64,000 bases of DNA from Candidatus Saccharimonadota bacterium (GTDB lineage: Bacteria > Patescibacteriota > Saccharimonadia > Saccharimonadales > Saccharimonadaceae): the NCBI GenBank assembly GCA_017431105.1, contig JAFRLS010000034.1, positions 62,001 to 126,000 on the forward strand, in the 5' to 3' direction. Positions 3,363 to 50,536 of the stretch are shown here, in pieces. The translations under genes and the position numbers were made by a program. Under the pieces are notes generated by a model. The model was not told the origin of the DNA. It made no database searches and worked only from the letters and a program-made list of their open reading frames with translations. The first letter of the stretch is position 1; each line of letters opens with the position of its first letter.

Positions 3363-5003
3363 CTATCTAGCTGAATTTTGCAAGCTAAGAATCTCGCGCA
3401 GAATGTCTTCATAAGCGTCATCATCTTCACTTAGTTCAGCAAGCTTAGCGTTTAGCTCCTTGATGCGATGCTTTCTGCATTCATCCTTGTAGCGTAACAT
3501 TAGCTCAGCGGCTTCTTTTTCGTAATTTAAATCTTTTAGCCTATTGTGCTCATTATTAAATATTAATTCTAACTCGCTGAGCCTAGTTTCGTCTTCTGGG
3601 ATATCTAATGGGATCTTAGTTTTAGTAATGCCACCAAATAGTTTGAGGGCCAGGAGGCTATTTTCGAGTTTTTGAATATTATCTGGTATTATTGTAGTCT
3701 TTGGTTTTTTCAAATATCTGTGGGTGGCTGATTGTTCTAGTTTTTTATTCAACCTTTCTCCCTTTTCGCGCAAGATTTCTACTTCGATACCGAGCTTCTT
3801 TGCGACTTTTTCTTCGTAACTAGCACGCTCGACCTCATCCTTGACATAACTGAGAAGCTGGAGTGCAACATCGGAATATTTTTTCTTATCTGGGGCGAGA
3901 TTGAAGTTTAGGTTCTCTTCGTATTTTTTAAGAAGCCAATCTACTGCGGGCACACGTTCTTCAACGGCTTGTTGCCAAAGCTTGGGATCTTTTTGAATTA
4001 ATTCGTCTGGATCTTTGGCGCCATGATAATTGGAAATAACTGTAAGATTAATGCCAAGGTCGCCAGCGAGCATAATCGCGCGTTCGGTGGCTTTTACCCC
4101 GGCTTCGTCACCATCGTAAGCCAGACGAATGTCTGAAGTAAGTTTTGATAAGATTTTAAGATGTTGTTCGGTCATGGCTGTGCCAGAAGTGGCAACTGCT
4201 TCTTTTACTCCAGCCTGGTGAGAAGAAATAACATCCATGTTCCCCTCTACGATCACAACGAAACCGCTGCGGCGAATAGCTTCTTTGGCATGGTACAAAC
4301 CAAAAATAAAACGAGATTTATTAAATAGTATAGTTTCTGGCGTATTGAGATATTTGGGTTCGCCTTTTTTTAAAATGCGTGCGGTAAAACCAATCACATT
4401 ACCAGAAGTATCGATAAACGGCACCATCATGCGGTCTCGGAATAGGTCGCTTTTGTATTGGTTAAGTAGGCCAGCGGAATCAAGTTCGCCTATTGTAAAC
4501 CCACGTTTTCCTAAAACGTTTAGAAGTGCCTTACCGCCGGCGGGAGAATATCCGATTTTGAATTCTTCGACAGTTTTACGATTTAGATTGCGTTTATAAA
4601 ATACATATTCGCAAACAGATTTATCACGAACGAGACAGGCCTGATAATATTTTGTAGCAAGGGTAAGGGCTTCTTTAGCACGACTTTTGCGTTTACTAAC
4701 GCCGGCATCACCGCCATAGTATTTAGTGAGATCTACCCCGGCTTGAGCAGCTAGTTTTTCAATAGCCTCCTTGAAGCTAATTCCCTCTACTTCCATTACG
4801 AAAGAAAAGATATCGCCGCCCTTATTAGCAGAAAAGTCGTGCCAAATACCTTTCTCGGGAGAAACCATGAAAGATGGAGTTTTGTCGATGCCCCAAGGAG
4901 AATGCCCTTTTAAATTCCGGCCGGCCCGCTTTAATTCTACATACCCACCTACCACATCTTCGATCGCGAGCCGAGATTTGATTTCTTCCTTCGCGTCGTT
5001 CAT
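3363..5003 (-). CDS. dnaG: DNA primase, zinc ligands missing
   Basis: I choose the ATG at 5003 (MNDAKEEIKS), 6 nt downstream of a TATAAT hexamer at 5010-5015; the longer reading from 5045 would translate into the palindromic element. The product is 546 aa. The N-terminal CHC2 zinc domain is recognisable (KTPSFMVSPEKG), but the four ligand positions of E. coli DnaG carry Ser, Gly, Asp and Asn/Ala-type residues (HSPWG for CPFH; DFSANKGGD for CFGCGAHGN). The TOPRIM core is intact (VIVEGNMDV and YDGDEAG). It makes RNA primers at the replication fork. Loss of the zinc site is the oddity. Confidence 0.95.
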   Translation of the reverse strand: MNDAKEEIKSRLAIEDVVGGYVELKRAGRNLKGHSPWGIDKTPSFMVSPEKGIWHDFSANKGGDIFSFVMEVEGISFKEAIEKLAAQAGVDLTKYYGGDAGVSKRKSRAKEALTLATKYYQACLVRDKSVCEYVFYKRNLNRKTVEEFKIGYSPAGGKALLNVLGKRGFTIGELDSAGLLNQYKSDLFRDRMMVPFIDTSGNVIGFTARILKKGEPKYLNTPETILFNKSRFIFGLYHAKEAIRRSGFVVIVEGNMDVISSHQAGVKEAVATSGTAMTEQHLKILSKLTSDIRLAYDGDEAGVKATERAIMLAGDLGINLTVISNYHGAKDPDELIQKDPKLWQQAVEERVPAVDWLLKKYEENLNFNLAPDKKKYSDVALQLLSYVKDEVERASYEEKVAKKLGIEVEILREKGERLNKKLEQSATHRYLKKPKTTIIPDNIQKLENSLLALKLFGGITKTKIPLDIPEDETRLSELELIFNNEHNRLKDLNYEKEAAELMLRYKDECRKHRIKELNAKLAELSEDDDAYEDILREILSLQNSAR

Positions 5004-5008
5004 AGGAT

Positions 5009-5096
5009 GATTATAACACGGATATCCTTTTGAGGACACACTCAAGGCCGTTCGGCCAAGCTTACGGTCCTCAAAAGGACATTCCGTGTTATAATC
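5009..5096. repeat. Palindromic element 1, intergenic, promoter-bearing arms
   Basis: Left arm 5009-5036 and right arm 5068-5096 are inverted copies differing at few positions; both contain CGTGTTATAATC. Between them lies a core of about 31 nt with ACACTCAAGG, a GGCCGTTCGGCC palindrome and CTTACGGTCC. The arms place a TATAAT box 6 nt before dnaG on one side and 6 nt before the gene at 5102 on the other. The core resembles those at 32.4 and 49.8 kb. Confidence 0.9.
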
Positions 5097-5101
5097 TTAG
5101 T

Positions 5102-5704
5102 ATGGATAATACGGAATATCTCAAGCAAATCTCACAAACGGTGAGACCGGAAAAGAAATCGAGAGGGTGGATGTCGTCGCCGATTTTTAAAGTAGTGGTG
5201 GGTGGGATACTAGCTTTTATTGTTATTATGATAATTGGGTCAGTAATAACTGGTGGTAAGACTAGTCTTAAAGAGCAGACGATTTCATTAAAGTTACATG
5301 TTGAAAACACTATGAACGTGGTATCTGAATACCAAACAAATTTGAAATCTTCAGATTTAAGATCTAGCAGCGCTTCACTTTCTGGTATATTGTCTAACAC
5401 TAACCGTAAATTGACAGAATATATAGAAGGCAAATATTCCGATAAAGATTCTAAAGATCTAGAAGAAGAAGCCACCACGCATAAAGATGAGTTGGAAAAT
5501 GATTTGTTTGAAGCGAAGATTAATGGAATCTTAGATCGGATTTTCGCACACAAAATGGCGCTTGAGGTTTCTTTAATCATCGCAGAAGAAACTAGTATAT
5601 ACGATGCTTCTAAAGATGAGAACCTGAAATCGATATTAGAGAGTTCATATAATAGCTTGAATAATTTGTATAATAATTTTAACGATTTTTCGGAAACTAA
5701 ATAA
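5102..5704 (+). CDS. Membrane-anchored protein of unknown function
   Basis: 200 aa from ATG 5102, chosen because TATAAT at 5090-5095 is 6 nt upstream (a leaderless start); the in-frame ATG at 5030 lies inside the palindromic element. A short cytoplasmic N-terminus is followed by one strongly hydrophobic segment (about residues 28-51), then a long polar, Lys/Glu/Ser-rich, probably alpha-helical and coiled-coil-prone outer domain. I do not recognise a family. mscL follows 13 nt downstream with its own SD, so the two are probably co-transcribed. Confidence 0.8.
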
Positions 5705-29617: not shown

Positions 29618-30271
29618 TTAGTGGGAAAGTTTTAAATAATAGAAACGCTCTAAATTACCAGTTTTGCCACGTAGGTCGTTGTCGCGTTTGTTAATAATTA
29701 AAAAATTGTTCGTCTTAAGCCAAAATTCGAAATTTTTGATAATTTCACGGCGGATCTTTTCGTTTTTAACGACGCCTTTGTTGAGTTGGTGTGGCGCAGC
29801 TTCAAATTGTGGCTTAAACATCACAAGGAATTCAGTATGTCTGTCGGCTAAATGGTTTTTGGCATGTTCTAAGATTTTAGTAAGACTTAAGAATGAAACA
29901 TCTGCTACTATGACATCCGGCAAAGCAACAAATACTTCATTTTCGGACACACTCCGGGGCGTTACTTCGTGCGCCTTCAGCGAGCGCCCAAGTCTACGGT
30001 CCTCAAATGAAGTATTTGTTGCCCTCACATCAAAAATGTCAGTCTTCTCATGAAGATCGATACGTGGGTCAAACCGGAGGGGAGTTTTCATCTGGTTGGT
30101 TCCCTTCTCGACGGCGATGACTTTTTTGGCGCCCTTTTCAAGCGCAATTTCAGTGAAGCCACCGGTGGAAGAGCCAATGTCTAAAACTACTTTGTCTTTA
30201 AAATCAAAATTAAAGGCGCGGACAGCGCCTTCAATTTTGATGTAACCTCTATTTACGTCCGCGGTATTCAT
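29618..30271 (-). CDS. TlyA/FtsJ-like rRNA methyltransferase lacking the S4 domain
   Basis: 217 aa from ATG 30271 (MNTADVNRGYIKIEGA), inside the 3' end of efp. The methyltransferase core is clear: VVLDIGSSTGGFTEIALEKGA (read in two parts), the DVSFLSL motif and VMFKPQFE. The N-terminal S4 RNA-binding domain of TlyA (about 60 aa) is absent. Near residues 83-115 a foreign peptide (EDRRLGRSLKAHE, VTPRSVSEN) interrupts the fold; it is encoded by palindromic element 2. Predicted 2'-O-methylation of rRNA. Confidence 0.8.
   Translation of the reverse strand: MNTADVNRGYIKIEGAVRAFNFDFKDKVVLDIGSSTGGFTEIALEKGAKKVIAVEKGTNQMKTPLRFDPRIDLHEKTDIFDVRATNTSFEDRRLGRSLKAHEVTPRSVSENEVFVALPDVIVADVSFLSLTKILEHAKNHLADRHTEFLVMFKPQFEAAPHQLNKGVVKNEKIRREIIKNFEFWLKTNNFLIINKRDNDLRGKTGNLERFYYLKLSH
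29925..30022. repeat. Palindromic element 2, in frame inside tlyA-like gene
   Basis: Arms GCAACAAATACTTCATTT (from 29925) and its complement (ending 30022) flank a core. The core segment 29945-30007 (63 bp) is identical to 34632-34694. The reading frame stays open through the whole element. Confidence 0.92.
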
Positions 30272-30806
30272 AAGTGTCCGTATCCACCGAGACGGTGTCG
30301 CCTTGTTTGATGAAAGCAGGGACCTTGATAACAACGCCTGTTTCGAGAGTAGCATCTTTCATGACTGAGCTAGTAGTGTCACCTTTAACGGCGGTTTCTG
30401 TATAGGTAACGGCAAGCCAAAGATTCTTTGGCAAAACTAGATTAATCGGGGTACCATTATAGAATTGAATTTCCATTTCGTCGCCGTCTTTCATGAAATC
30501 CTTCATGTCGCCGACCATATCAGCTGAAAGCTCATATTGTTCGAACGATTCTGGGTCCATAAAGTAAAACTTTTCATCATCACGATAAAGGTATTGAACC
30601 TTACGTGTGGTAACTTCAGCTGGTTCGATTTTTTCTTGGCCTTTGAAGGTCTTTGGCAAAAGTGCACCAGTAATGAGATTTTTAACTTTGACGTTTACAA
30701 TGGAACCGCCACGGCCCATAACTTTTTGTGAGTATTCCACCACTTTATACGGCTGGCCGTCTAAAGTAATGAGGGTATTTTTCTTTAGATCTGTTGGTCC
30801 GTACAT
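30249..30806 (-). CDS. efp: Translation elongation factor P, Arg at the tip
   Basis: 185 aa, three beta-barrel domains as usual. The domain I loop reads VMGRGGSIVNVK with Arg at residue 32, where many bacteria have the modified Lys. Arg32 EF-Ps are normally rhamnosylated by EarP; no earP is visible in this window. It rescues ribosomes at polyproline. It lies between rpsR and the tlyA-like gene in one operon. Confidence 0.96.
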   Translation of the reverse strand: MYGPTDLKKNTLITLDGQPYKVVEYSQKVMGRGGSIVNVKVKNLITGALLPKTFKGQEKIEPAEVTTRKVQYLYRDDEKFYFMDPESFEQYELSADMVGDMKDFMKDGDEMEIQFYNGTPINLVLPKNLWLAVTYTETAVKGDTTSSVMKDATLETGVVIKVPAFIKQGDTVSVDTDTYEYRGRK

Positions 30807-31957: not shown

Positions 31958-33001
31958 TTACTTATCCCAAGGGAAGTTGTGGCCGTAATGACCGTATTTG
32001 GCAGTTTCTTCGTAAATTGGGCGCTTTAGGTCTAGGAATTTGATGATGCCGCGTGGGGTGAGATCGTAACCCTCGATTTCTTCTGGTTTGCCGTCGATGA
32101 TGACGGTTTTTTCTAGTGGTTCGGCATAACCAATAGCATATGCGAGACGAACAAGGACTTCGTGAGCATTTCTGTTCCTAAGGTAATCAACAGCGATTTT
32201 ACGGGCCATGTAGGCAGCGGAGCGATCAACTTTAGAAGGGTCTTTACCAGAATAGCAACCGCCACCAATTGCAATCCGTGGGCCGTAATTGTCGACAATA
32301 AGCTTGCGGCCAGTGAGACCAGTATCGGCGTCGAAACCACCTTGTTGCCAGTCGCCAGCAGGATTCAAGTGAAGCTCAATAGAAGACTCCGAACCATCTT
32401 CTTCGGACACGCTCAAGGGCGCTCGCCCAAGACTACGGTCCTCAGAAGATGGCTTCGGAGTCCCTTTCAACCCTTTCTCTTTGATAAATTCCTCAACAAG
32501 TTCTTTTAGCGCGGCTTGGCTAACATTTTGGAAACTAGCAACAATAGAATCAATAGTGCCATCTGGGGCAATGGTGACTTGAGTTTTGCCGTCATATGGA
32601 TGTTTACTATAGATAAACTCATTTAAATTTCTAGATAAGACGACTTCGAGTGGAAGCATTTCTGGAGTTTCGTCGGTCGCGTAGCCAATCATAATGCCCT
32701 GGTCGCCAGCACCACCAGTGTTAACGCCTTGAGCGATTTCTGGAGATTGTTTAACAATCTTAGTGTGAACTTCGATGTTGTCACCGGCAATGCGTTTGAC
32801 GATTTTTTCAATATCGATATCTTCGGCTTTGGAAGTTATTTCACCAGTTACAAAAACTACGCCGTGACCACCACAGGTTTCGGCTGCAACTCTTGCTTCT
32901 GGATCTTTAGCTAGATAGGCGTCCAAGATTGCATCAGAAATCTGGTCGCATAGTTTATCTGGATGTTTTGGAGAGACACTCTCCGCTGTTCGATAGAACA
33001 T
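31958..33001 (-). CDS. metK: S-adenosylmethionine synthase with an in-frame insertion
   Basis: 347 aa. ESVSPKHPDKLCDQISDAILD, GAGDQGIMIGYATDETPE and DTGLTGRKLIVDNYG are core motifs. The domains are otherwise short. Between FIKEKGLKG and IELHLNPAGDW the protein carries an extra peptide (SSEDRSLGRAPLSVSEEDGS) encoded by palindromic element 3; E. coli MetK has a short loop there. The expression is under a SAM riboswitch whose closing stem overlaps the start codon. Confidence 0.97.
   Translation of the reverse strand: MFYRTAESVSPKHPDKLCDQISDAILDAYLAKDPEARVAAETCGGHGVVFVTGEITSKAEDIDIEKIVKRIAGDNIEVHTKIVKQSPEIAQGVNTGGAGDQGIMIGYATDETPEMLPLEVVLSRNLNEFIYSKHPYDGKTQVTIAPDGTIDSIVASFQNVSQAALKELVEEFIKEKGLKGTPKPSSEDRSLGRAPLSVSEEDGSESSIELHLNPAGDWQQGGFDADTGLTGRKLIVDNYGPRIAIGGGCYSGKDPSKVDRSAAYMARKIAVDYLRNRNAHEVLVRLAYAIGYAEPLEKTVIIDGKPEEIEGYDLTPRGIIKFLDLKRPIYEETAKYGHYGHNFPWDK
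32385..32462. repeat. Palindromic element 3, in frame inside metK
   Basis: Left arm from 32385 (GACTCCGAACCATCTTCT) and right arm to 32462 are mirror copies with two differences; the short core holds CGGACACGCTCAAGGGCG and CTACGGTCCTC. 78 bp in all (26 codons). Confidence 0.92.
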
Positions 33002-33090
33002 ATCTTTCCTTTCTGGCCGGAATTACCACCTTAGTTTGCTAGGTTGGTAGGAGGTCGACGGGCCGTTCCCTCGCTCCTTCTTGATATTAT
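33000..33090 (-). promoter_or_regulatory. SAM-I-clan riboswitch controlling metK
   Basis: Reading the minus strand: ATATCAAGAAGG, GAGGGAACGGCCC, ACCAACCT and AAGGTGGTAATTCCGGCC follow in the order of the SAM-I consensus (ATCAAGAG, GAGGGA..GGCCC, GGCAACC, AGGTGCTAATTCC). AUAUC at 33087-33083 can pair with GAUAU at 33004-33000, which includes the first two bases of the metK AUG, so ligand-bound P1 would hide the SD/start region. No P4 helix or terminator is seen. Confidence 0.85.
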
Positions 33091-34615: not shown

Positions 34616-34705
34616 ATCAAATACATTTTGAGGACACACTCCGGGGCGTTACTTCGTGCGCCTTCAGCGAGCGCCCAAGTCTACGGTCCTCAAAATGCAT
34701 TTGAT
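34616..34705. repeat. Palindromic element 4, 3' flank of ftsK
   Basis: Arms ATCAAATACATTTTGAGGA and the complement of ATCAAATGCATTTTGAGGA differ at one position. Core 34632-34694 is identical to that of element 2. It begins 5 nt after the ftsK stop and could also act as a terminator. Confidence 0.93.
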
Positions 34706-47845: not shown

Positions 47846-50536
47846 TTAGATCAGCTCTAGCTGGTTTTTGAGGCGAGAGATAAGCTGTTCTTTCTCTTTG
47901 ATTGCATCTCTAGTCTCTTTGACGAGATGCTCTGGGGCGCGTTCGACGTAGTTTGGGTTCATCATGCGGGCGTTGAGGGCGTCTAGATCGCGACCAACAG
48001 AGAGGATGCGCTCCATCAGGGCATCTTTATATTCTTTAACCACTTCTTCTGGCACGTCTAGATAGAGTTCGTGATTAGCGAGGGCAATACGGAGGCCCCT
48101 CGGAGCGCCACCTAGAGGATTAATTTCTGGTACTCTGGTAAGAATCTTGACAAGTAGGGCATTATCGGCCACTAGGCTATCGTTATCATACATGAGGCCA
48201 TACTTTTTCGCGTTATTGGTGCCTGGGAGGGCCTGTAAGGTACTTCTAATCTCAGATACGATAGTTCTTATGTTTTCAAAGTTCTCGGCGCTTATCGGGT
48301 CGTATTTGAGCTCGTCTGGCCAGTTTTGGGTGATAATAAAACCGCTGGTCCAAGAAAGATTTTGCCAGATTGCCTCGGTAACAAATGGGGCAAAAGGATG
48401 GAGAGCAATTAGTAGAGTCTCAAGAGTCTTTTTTAAGAGGGATGTGTTTTTGTAGATTTTTTGTGATTCGAGGAACCAATCGGCGTATTTGTCCCAGATA
48501 GTACTATAAAGAACTTCGACGGCTTCGGCAAAACGATAGGTTTTCATGTCTTCCTCGACCTGTTTTAAGCAATTGTTGATTTCGCGGCAAACCCAGTCTT
48601 CACCCATATTCAAAGTAGTGTAGGGCTCTATTCTAGAGCCCTCGTCCACAATGGATTGGATGAAGCGAGAGATGTTCCAGAGTTTGTTGCAGAGGTTGCG
48701 GCCAGAGACGACGGAATTTTCAGAGAAGGCTTGGTTCATACCGGCAGAACGACCTCTTAAAATACCAAGACGGAAAGCGTCAGAGCCATATTGGGCAACA
48801 AGGTCCATTGGGTTAATGACGTTGCCTTTAGATTTAGACATCTTCTTGCCATGGGCATCGAGTACAAGACCGTGGAGATAGACTTCTTTAAAGGGAACTT
48901 CGCCGGTAACATAAAGGCCCATCATAATCATGCGGGCAACCCAGGCGAAGAGAATATCGGCGCCGGTTTCCATGACATTAAGCGGGTAATATGGACTGTG
49001 ATTTTCTTCGGACCAATCCGTGCAAACGATCGGCCAGTGTGAGCTAGAAAACCAGGTGTCGAAGGTGTCTTCATCGCGGACGTATTTGACGCCAGCTTTT
49101 TCAATCTCTTTCAAATTGGTACGGCGGTCAAAAATCCAATCCGGCTCGTCGGTGGCAGAATCGTCAATTTTTCTAAACATTGGGATGGCAATACCCCAAG
49201 GAATTTGGCGGGAAATATTCCAGTCTTTGAGATTTTTAAGGTAATCAATGAGAATTTTTTGCTTATTTTCAGGGTAGAATTTAATTTCGTTGTTTTCGAG
49301 GTGTTTGATGGCGGTAGCGGCGAGTTTCTCGACATCGATAAACCACTGCTCTTTAAGCATTGGCTCGATAACGGTGCCACATTTGTAGCAATGAGCAACG
49401 GCATGATCAATGGTTTTTTCGCCTTTTAAGAGACCGATGGCGTTGAGATCTTTTAAGACCTGTTTACGACATTCAGTAGTGGCGAGACCATCGTATTTCT
49501 CAGGGACATTAATCATGCGGCCATCTTCGGAAATGACCTGAATACGGGGGAGATTGTGGCGTTTACCAACTTCGAAATCGTCGAAATCATGCGCTGGGGT
49601 AATTTTGACGGCACCGGTACCATACTCTGGGTCGGCATGCTCGTCGGCGATGACCGGAATTTCGCGGTCGGTAAGAGGTAGGTGGACGGTTTTGCCGATT
49701 AAATCTTTGTAACGCTCATCATCTGGGTTGACGGCGACAGCGACGTCACCAAAGAGAGTCTCGGGGCGAGTGGTAGAAACAATAAGAGAAGCTACGGAAT
49801 CCTCTTCCGAGGACCGTAAGTTTGGGCGAGCGCCCTTGGGCGTGTCCGAGGAAGACGGATCCGTAGCTTCTTCTGATAATTTATACTCAATCTCCCAGAG
49901 AGTACCTTTTTCGTCCTGGTGTTCAACTTCGATGTCGGCAAAGGCGGTTTGGTGCTTTGGGCAGAAGTTGACGAGCTTTTCGTCTCTATAAATGAGGCCG
50001 TCGTTCCACATTTTTTCGAAAGTAGTGTAGACACGGTCGACAACGTTTTCGTCGAGGGTGAAAGTGAGGTCATCCCAAGAGCAGGAAGCGCCGAGAGCGC
50101 GGAGCTGAAGCTCCATGTTGCCTCTCTGTTCGGCGACGAAATCCCAAACGCGAGCATAAAGCTCGTCGCGAGAGTATTCAAAACGGGTGTGGCCTTGTTT
50201 TTCTAGATTACGTTCATAAACCACCCAAGTTTCAAAACCGGCATGATCGGCGCCAGGGATATACCAGGAGCTGAGGCCTTTTAAGCGATAATAACGAATG
50301 AGGGAATCTTCGGTAGCAATAGTGAGGCCATGGCCAATATGGAGATTACCGTTGGCGTTCGGCGGTGGCATGACTATTGAATAAGTGTTGTAACCAGTGA
50401 TACGGTCGTCGTATCCATCGCTGTCATTGTCGACGGGGACAGTAGGGATGGTTGGTTTAAAGACACCCGAAGCCTCCCAAGCGGCGTAAACGTCGGATTC
50501 AAATTGATTAGGTTCGTAGCTACTCGAAAATTTCAT
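47846..50536 (-). CDS. valS: Valyl-tRNA synthetase with an in-frame insertion
   Basis: 896 aa class I synthetase. HIGH box NLHIGHGLTIATED, the editing domain (IVSTTRPETLFGD), KMSKS loop KKMSKSKGNVINP, and the C-terminal coiled coil with QLISRLKNQLEL are intact. Between EIEYKLSEEA and LIVSTTRPET it carries SSSDTPKGARPNLRSSEEDS, the product of palindromic element 6, next to the editing domain. TGGTATTAT is 6 nt before the ATG. Confidence 0.97.
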   Translation of the reverse strand: MKFSSSYEPNQFESDVYAAWEASGVFKPTIPTVPVDNDSDGYDDRITGYNTYSIVMPPPNANGNLHIGHGLTIATEDSLIRYYRLKGLSSWYIPGADHAGFETWVVYERNLEKQGHTRFEYSRDELYARVWDFVAEQRGNMELQLRALGASCSWDDLTFTLDENVVDRVYTTFEKMWNDGLIYRDEKLVNFCPKHQTAFADIEVEHQDEKGTLWEIEYKLSEEATDPSSSDTPKGARPNLRSSEEDSVASLIVSTTRPETLFGDVAVAVNPDDERYKDLIGKTVHLPLTDREIPVIADEHADPEYGTGAVKITPAHDFDDFEVGKRHNLPRIQVISEDGRMINVPEKYDGLATTECRKQVLKDLNAIGLLKGEKTIDHAVAHCYKCGTVIEPMLKEQWFIDVEKLAATAIKHLENNEIKFYPENKQKILIDYLKNLKDWNISRQIPWGIAIPMFRKIDDSATDEPDWIFDRRTNLKEIEKAGVKYVRDEDTFDTWFSSSHWPIVCTDWSEENHSPYYPLNVMETGADILFAWVARMIMMGLYVTGEVPFKEVYLHGLVLDAHGKKMSKSKGNVINPMDLVAQYGSDAFRLGILRGRSAGMNQAFSENSVVSGRNLCNKLWNISRFIQSIVDEGSRIEPYTTLNMGEDWVCREINNCLKQVEEDMKTYRFAEAVEVLYSTIWDKYADWFLESQKIYKNTSLLKKTLETLLIALHPFAPFVTEAIWQNLSWTSGFIITQNWPDELKYDPISAENFENIRTIVSEIRSTLQALPGTNNAKKYGLMYDNDSLVADNALLVKILTRVPEINPLGGAPRGLRIALANHELYLDVPEEVVKEYKDALMERILSVGRDLDALNARMMNPNYVERAPEHLVKETRDAIKEKEQLISRLKNQLELI
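49787..49871. repeat. Palindromic element 6, in frame inside valS
   Basis: Arms AGAAGCTACGGAATCCTCTT (49787 on) and the complement of the end at 49871. The core is the family core on the opposite strand (GGACCGTAAGTTTGGGCGAG, GGGCGTGTCCGAG), so it is inverted relative to element 3 with respect to the coding strand. Confidence 0.92.

Follow-up and report, generated by a model that had tools for sequence, protein, structure and literature searches.

Protein-coding palindromes are known from Rickettsia, where they are called RPEs, and from Wolbachia, and divergent promoters are a feature of the Correia elements found in Neisseria, according to the accounts in PMC2229807 and PMC10969869. Hairpins are known to undergo template switching, which, as outlined in PMC8794818, both creates and repairs their arms. 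Judged by its sequence, the palindrome between the primase gene dnaG and its divergent neighbor in the rumen-type Saccharibacterium genome studied here belongs to a family of small palindromic repeats that is spread among Saccharibacteria. Literature searches on palindromic or MITE-like repeats in Saccharibacteria and Patescibacteria and on copied-flank elements, both conducted mostly among papers accessible without subscription, returned no description of this family. We consider it likely that, at dnaG, a family copy came to lie between two pre-existing and ordinary −10 boxes, that its arms were formed by template switching, and that the flanks of the two promoters were equalized.

The palindrome in the dnaG spacer and its repeat family

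The window, i.e., the whole 64-kb stretch of DNA that was analyzed, carries dnaG on the minus strand (3363–5003, ATG at 5003–5001), assigned from its open reading frame and the Pfam domains DNAG_N, Zn_ribbon_DnaG, and Toprim. The divergent neighbor, an open reading frame of 200 amino acids on the plus strand (5102–5704), showed no Pfam match at E 0.001. The −10 box TATAAT of dnaG occupies 5010–5015 on the minus strand, with a TG at 5018–5017 and 6 nt (5009–5004) before the ATG; that of the neighbor occupies 5090–5095 on the plus strand, with a TG at 5087–5088 and likewise 6 nt (5096–5101) before the ATG at 5102. The coordinates therefore agree with the original prediction, which had placed each TATAAT 6 nt from its start codon. 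It had also found CGTGTTATAATC in both arms of the palindrome, and this sequence indeed has just two exact occurrences in the window, at 5085–5096 (plus strand) and 5009–5020 (minus strand). When up to two mismatches were allowed, seven occurrences were found against 6.1 expected; since near-matches are thus about as frequent as by chance, only the exact pair is notable. Apart from promoter consensus, CGTGTTATAATC contains only the CG ahead of the TG, the variable base of TGn, and the C that follows TATAAT.

The arms of the palindrome (5009–5037 and 5067–5096, plus strand), delimited by inverted repeats and RNA folding, form a single long stem with few interruptions, whose predicted stability (−51 kcal/mol, z = −11) was equalled by none of 200 shuffles. 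Between them lies the conserved core GGACACACTCAAGGCCGTTCGGCCAAGCTTACGGTCC (5034–5070, plus strand), which an eight-copy alignment resolves into a GGAC/GTCC stem, a conserved internal loop, and a GGCC stem. It scores 82.4 bits with R1, a covariance model built from eight copies. A family element measures about 80 nt and comprises the conserved 37-nt core and arms of about 20 nt. In the 880-kb source genome, R1 identifies 13 places (15 hits, two of which are the reverse strand of palindromes), and across the genus it matches 40 of 60 genomes at E 0.01, with 0–28 copies in each. The core pattern had no exact match in viral contigs.

Five copies lie in the window. Besides the one at dnaG, copy 2 (29931–30016, plus strand) is inserted in frame in an FtsJ-like methyltransferase gene (29618–30355, minus strand), copy 3 (32391–32455, plus strand) in frame in metK (31958–33001, minus strand), and copy 5 (49797–49861, minus strand) in frame in valS (47846–50536, minus strand), while copy 4 (34618–34703, plus strand) is intergenic and shares the long-loop core of copy 2. 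The in-frame copies of the source genome lie in the FtsJ-like methyltransferase, MetK, ValS, and IleS; three of the four read approximately SEDRxLGRAPLSVSEE or a longer version of this motif, and the ValS copy has the opposite orientation. By a simple heuristic rule, long open frames contain 65 of the 122 copies that were examined, so that the combination of in-frame and intergenic palindromic insertion known as a trait of RPEs is found here as well. This set consists of the 13 source-genome places, L105–L129, L254–L333, a second hit at L280, two at L020, and L034, and leaves out weaker hits and other element types.

ArgS and several of the four proteins named above have a loop that carries different, related palindromes in different species and none in others. 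In the ArgS of L013, L038, L049, and L061 (near 620–870), this loop holds a related, longer element type. Three of the species have nearly identical cores there, whereas their arms and the gene itself have diverged, and changes in one arm are mirrored in the other. The loop of the ValS editing domain (L165–L173; 49797–49861 in the window) is occupied in related species by numerous palindromic inserts that differ from one another and are partly decayed. A SAM riboswitch precedes metK (32997–33090, minus strand), the same gene that carries an in-frame copy. The assembly also contains a second, element-free metK (L162, contig G000:C27), 78% identical over the first part; given the assembly contamination of 7.69%, this contig probably stems from another species.

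Promoters of the dnaG spacer with and without the element

Among 59 non-overlapping open reading frames of the window, 16 have an exact TATAAT 3–12 nt upstream of an in-frame start; when the antisense strand of these genes was scored as a control, 2 of 59 did. Eleven of these 16 boxes stand at exactly 6 nt and 14 have the TGn extension. On sequence evidence, TGnTATAAT about 6 nt before the ATG is the usual promoter type of the source genome, and from the spacing we infer what resembles leaderless transcription from extended −10 promoters. Accordingly arranged, dnaG and its neighbor would each be transcribed leaderless from their own TGTTATAAT without requiring a −35 element, and for this reason a hairpin between the two genes would be tolerated. 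A literature search on leaderless starts in this phylum found nothing of use.

The dnaG region was compared in 80 relatives, which are Saccharibacteria or Nanosyncoccus apart from one uncultured bacterium (L086), many of them from ruminants. The divergent neighbor was recognized beside dnaG in 76 of them; L026, L035, L056, and L058 have no recognizable neighbor there, and in L035 the contig ends at this point. L034 and L073 are the only ones with an R1-type element in the spacer, leaving 74 of 76 spacers without it. As many as 72 of these 74 have −10 hexamers (TATAAT or TATACT) in both directions, and in the remaining two, L032 and L061, one exact hexamer is missing. The boxes overlap in 46 element-free spacers, are slightly spaced in 8, and stand back to back as in the source genome in 18. 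The first two layouts form a short palindrome such as GCTATAATTATAGC; in the overlapping one, this palindrome lies between both ATGs and constitutes a mirror-image promoter without any insert. The original prediction held that the element created the mirror-image promoters and that arm duplication transferred a core promoter between the two genes, and it named as a contradicting observation that coreless relatives have these divergent promoters too. This observation has now been made, and neither claim survives it at this locus.

What the insertion may have changed is the sequence around the boxes. Back-to-back spacing is scattered across the tree of the relatives, and the nearest relative, L013 (SH-aLRT 87), has slightly spaced, near-overlapping boxes. 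In view of this layout, the boxes were presumably drawn apart in the source lineage before or at the insertion, and their separation may have required that shared bases be duplicated. In the source spacer, the six bases that precede each −10 box agree throughout, which is unique among 18 back-to-back spacers; the 17 controls, from which L078, L034, and L073 are excluded, agree at 0–5 of 6 positions and never at more than four in a row. Such flank symmetry exceeds what two consensus promoters would share and fits a process in which one arm served to correct its counterpart. As the source spacer is the only one of the 18 with complete agreement, homogenization of the promoter flanks is likely, and arm copying probably made the flanks of the dnaG and neighbor promoters identical while supplying no missing promoter.

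The same complete agreement, together with the near-overlapping layout of the sister L013, could be read in favor of an insertion that copied the promoter of one gene in inverted form and handed it to the divergent gene. A glycosyltransferase gene (L366) lends this idea an example: TGTGTTATAAT stands 6 nt before the ATG inside one arm and is mirrored in the opposite arm, and no box was found 3–12 nt before the start in any of the 22 other readable loci. At plsC, a box in this interval is present in 5 of 24 readable element-free loci; for that reason a promoter gain there (L396, whose own box was scored as none since an upstream in-frame ATG was taken as the start) is a weak case and is not tied to the element. 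For dnaG, a transfer is contradicted by the presence of both promoters in 72 of 74 element-free relatives, and we regard a handed-over promoter there as quite unlikely.

A P-loop kinase gene and its divergent gene form a second pair arranged like that at dnaG. In L336 the element lies there between the flanks ATTATAGCATG ... CATGCTATAAT; L337, L338, and L340, which lack the element, have ATTATATCATGTTATACT at the same site and thereby both −10 boxes. Across 26 readable kinase loci counted as element-free, the kinase box reads TATACT 16 times and TATAAT 8 times, and 2 loci have none; L352, which is included in this count, has a long upstream palindrome of another kind. Of the loci with an insert, L336 and L339 have TATAAT and L354 has TATACT. 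Loci left unread numbered 7 of 30 for the glycosyltransferase, 5 of 30 for plsC, and 1 of 30 for the kinase. Upstream of the kinase gene in L364, the hot spot holds a coreless 15-nt hairpin (ATTATACCATAAATA/TATTTATGGTATACT) with a short loop, perhaps the remnant of a lost element. Sites of this kind keep promoter copying under consideration for the family, though not for dnaG. Of the broader proposal that a flank-copying insertion mechanism can rewire transcription, the copying of flanks is supported in the family by IleS arms and by unrelated arms around identical cores, but the gain of a promoter at dnaG is not.

Shared cores, private arms, and their possible origin

Identical cores, compared 14 nt inside the ends of the R1 model, were found in 11 of 210 within-genome copy pairs. 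In five of these pairs the similarity of the outer arms (0.14–0.43) is near the background of about 0.32. The other six pairs, with arms 0.64–1.0 similar, are all formed by L311, L314, L316, and L320 of one genome (G053); these four copies share an outer TTCGGACAGGACCCG-like segment and perhaps represent a longer, recent form of the element. The two arms of a copy are closely matched to each other: pairing is kept in 95.3% of cells, and 508 changes affect both sides as against 31 on one side, a result reached by none of 500 shuffles, in an alignment that was itself fitted to R1 and is therefore biased toward the pairs of the model.

Several arms can be traced to the host gene. In the IleS of L233, the left arm GCCGAGCTTGAAAATATTTC spells the conserved TYAELEN and the right arm GAAATATTTCAAGCTCGGC is its inverted copy, as read by eye. 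The same pattern with other codons was recognized by eye, against the conserved codons, in L231, L228, L226, and the source genome, and because several IleS arms are inverted host codons in this way, the idea of a copied flank holds for the family. In the FtsJ-like gene of L195, the left arm contains the host-like codons for TTKE, with the inverted copy on the right; empty forms of this type of site read KTKE in L218 and KTKV in L219. The polarity of copying does not seem to be constant. A rule that the 5′ arm is always the native one, proposed from IleS and L195, is ruled out by the FtsJ-like gene of L202, whose conserved codons are reached by the right arm and not by the left. The metK copy does not fit the pattern, since by hand count the entire 78-nt palindrome appears to be a net insertion and neither of its arms would then be host flank.

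Such arms probably arise by template switching during replication, in which a strand folded at the core would copy the opposite arm or the adjoining flank; the same event would build new arms and repair existing ones. At dnaG, it probably equalized the two promoter flanks without supplying a promoter. Taken further, this mechanism leads to the tentative possibility that only the 37-nt hairpin core spreads, and that the strand folds back at each new site and copies the local flank into perfect arms private to that copy. Whatever the flank contains, be it codons or a −10 box, would then be copied inverted to the other side: at the kinase gene the usual TATACT would have become TATAAT, and at dnaG one promoter flank would have been overwritten by that of the other gene. 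The symmetry of the arms may instead predate the element in part, if insertion prefers sites that are already palindromic, such as mirror promoters and loops. This would suit the element-free dnaG and kinase spacers, which are near-palindromes already, but IleS arms repeat conserved codons from one side, and the insert-free or decayed FtsJ-like loci L204 and L206, the two that were scored, contain no long inverted repeat. A preference of this kind is in our view rather unlikely, somewhat more so than a spread of the core alone.

Two further readings concern selection on the arms and the movement of the element. The strong covariation of the arms and their very stable folds would be expected if complementarity were maintained by selection for a regulatory or processing hairpin in the transcript. 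Selection on an mRNA hairpin should tolerate G·U but not A·C, and the mismatches show the reverse: on the model strand, A·C outnumbers G·T by 58 to 14 in the 122 copies, and by 24 to 1 in copies whose gene is transcribed along that strand. The excess of A·C even where the model strand is the mRNA argues that pairing is not kept for the mRNA. The opposite strand, as single-stranded DNA, would carry G·T, and the excess may result from mutation bias. In addition, the element matches no curated RNA family in Rfam, and the dnaG copy, being upstream of both predicted starts, would be absent from either leaderless transcript. On the direction of the mismatches and the missing Rfam match, an RNA function was rejected as a candidate, and we hold selection for a transcript hairpin to be very improbable. 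A classic MITE, non-autonomous and moved by a transposase through its own terminal repeats, would account for the dispersal, the variable copy number, and the occurrence of both intergenic and in-frame insertions. Against it stand arms that differ for most identical-core copies from different arm groups: shared terminal inverted repeats were not found, the outer arms being close to background between most copies except the four of G053. Direct repeats at the ends are inconsistent at the sites inspected by eye, with CATG perhaps repeated at L336 and no constant repeat at the others. The Pfam profile Y1_Tnp, the one transposase profile searched, is absent from the source genome and from 58 of 60 genomes of the genus; its absence from the source genome argues against a Y1 transposase as the mover there. 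A MITE origin appears improbable. The reverse transcriptase domain RVT_1 is present in 40 of these 60 genomes.

Comparison with described palindromic elements

The described systems resemble the Saccharibacteria family in different respects. Like the RPEs of PMC2229807 and PMC10969869, its members are small palindromes that occur in intergenic positions as well as in frame within conserved protein genes, and the family may be said to work like RPEs, a likeness of description and not of sequence. RPEs, as portrayed in these sources, belong to another host phylum and measure 105–150 in length compared with about 80 nt here, whereas in the Saccharibacteria family every copy has arms of its own, some of which look as if they were copied from the target. 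It is these private, partly target-derived arms that set the family apart. Protein-coding palindromes have so far been a curiosity of Rickettsia and Wolbachia, to which the Saccharibacteria add a second and dense set. Given dozens of species in which one set of essential genes offers many sites with and without an insert, both the origin and the upkeep of such palindromes become readable. If the arms are indeed copied from the target, a small element would be able to rewrite codons or promoter flanks on both of its sides without a transposase.

Correia elements (NEMIS) and other MITEs are, in the same two accounts, likewise small dispersed palindromes near genes. The promoters of Correia elements are described as lying inside the element, whereas the −10 boxes at dnaG are the genes' own and exist without it. 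Two good promoters standing back to back form an inverted repeat by themselves, and a promoter should not be attributed to a repeat until relatives have been examined. Perfect inverted repeats within conserved coding sequence are also reported from the mitochondria of Nematomorpha (PMC6649704); these belong to animal mitochondria and reach up to 284 bp, and what that report relates of them includes no mention of a shared core. The correction of quasipalindromes by template switching, as presented in PMC8794818, is similar in that one arm is copied so as to make and repair perfect inverted repeats. It is a form of mutation that can affect any hairpin, whereas the Saccharibacteria family is tied to a shared, repeated core.
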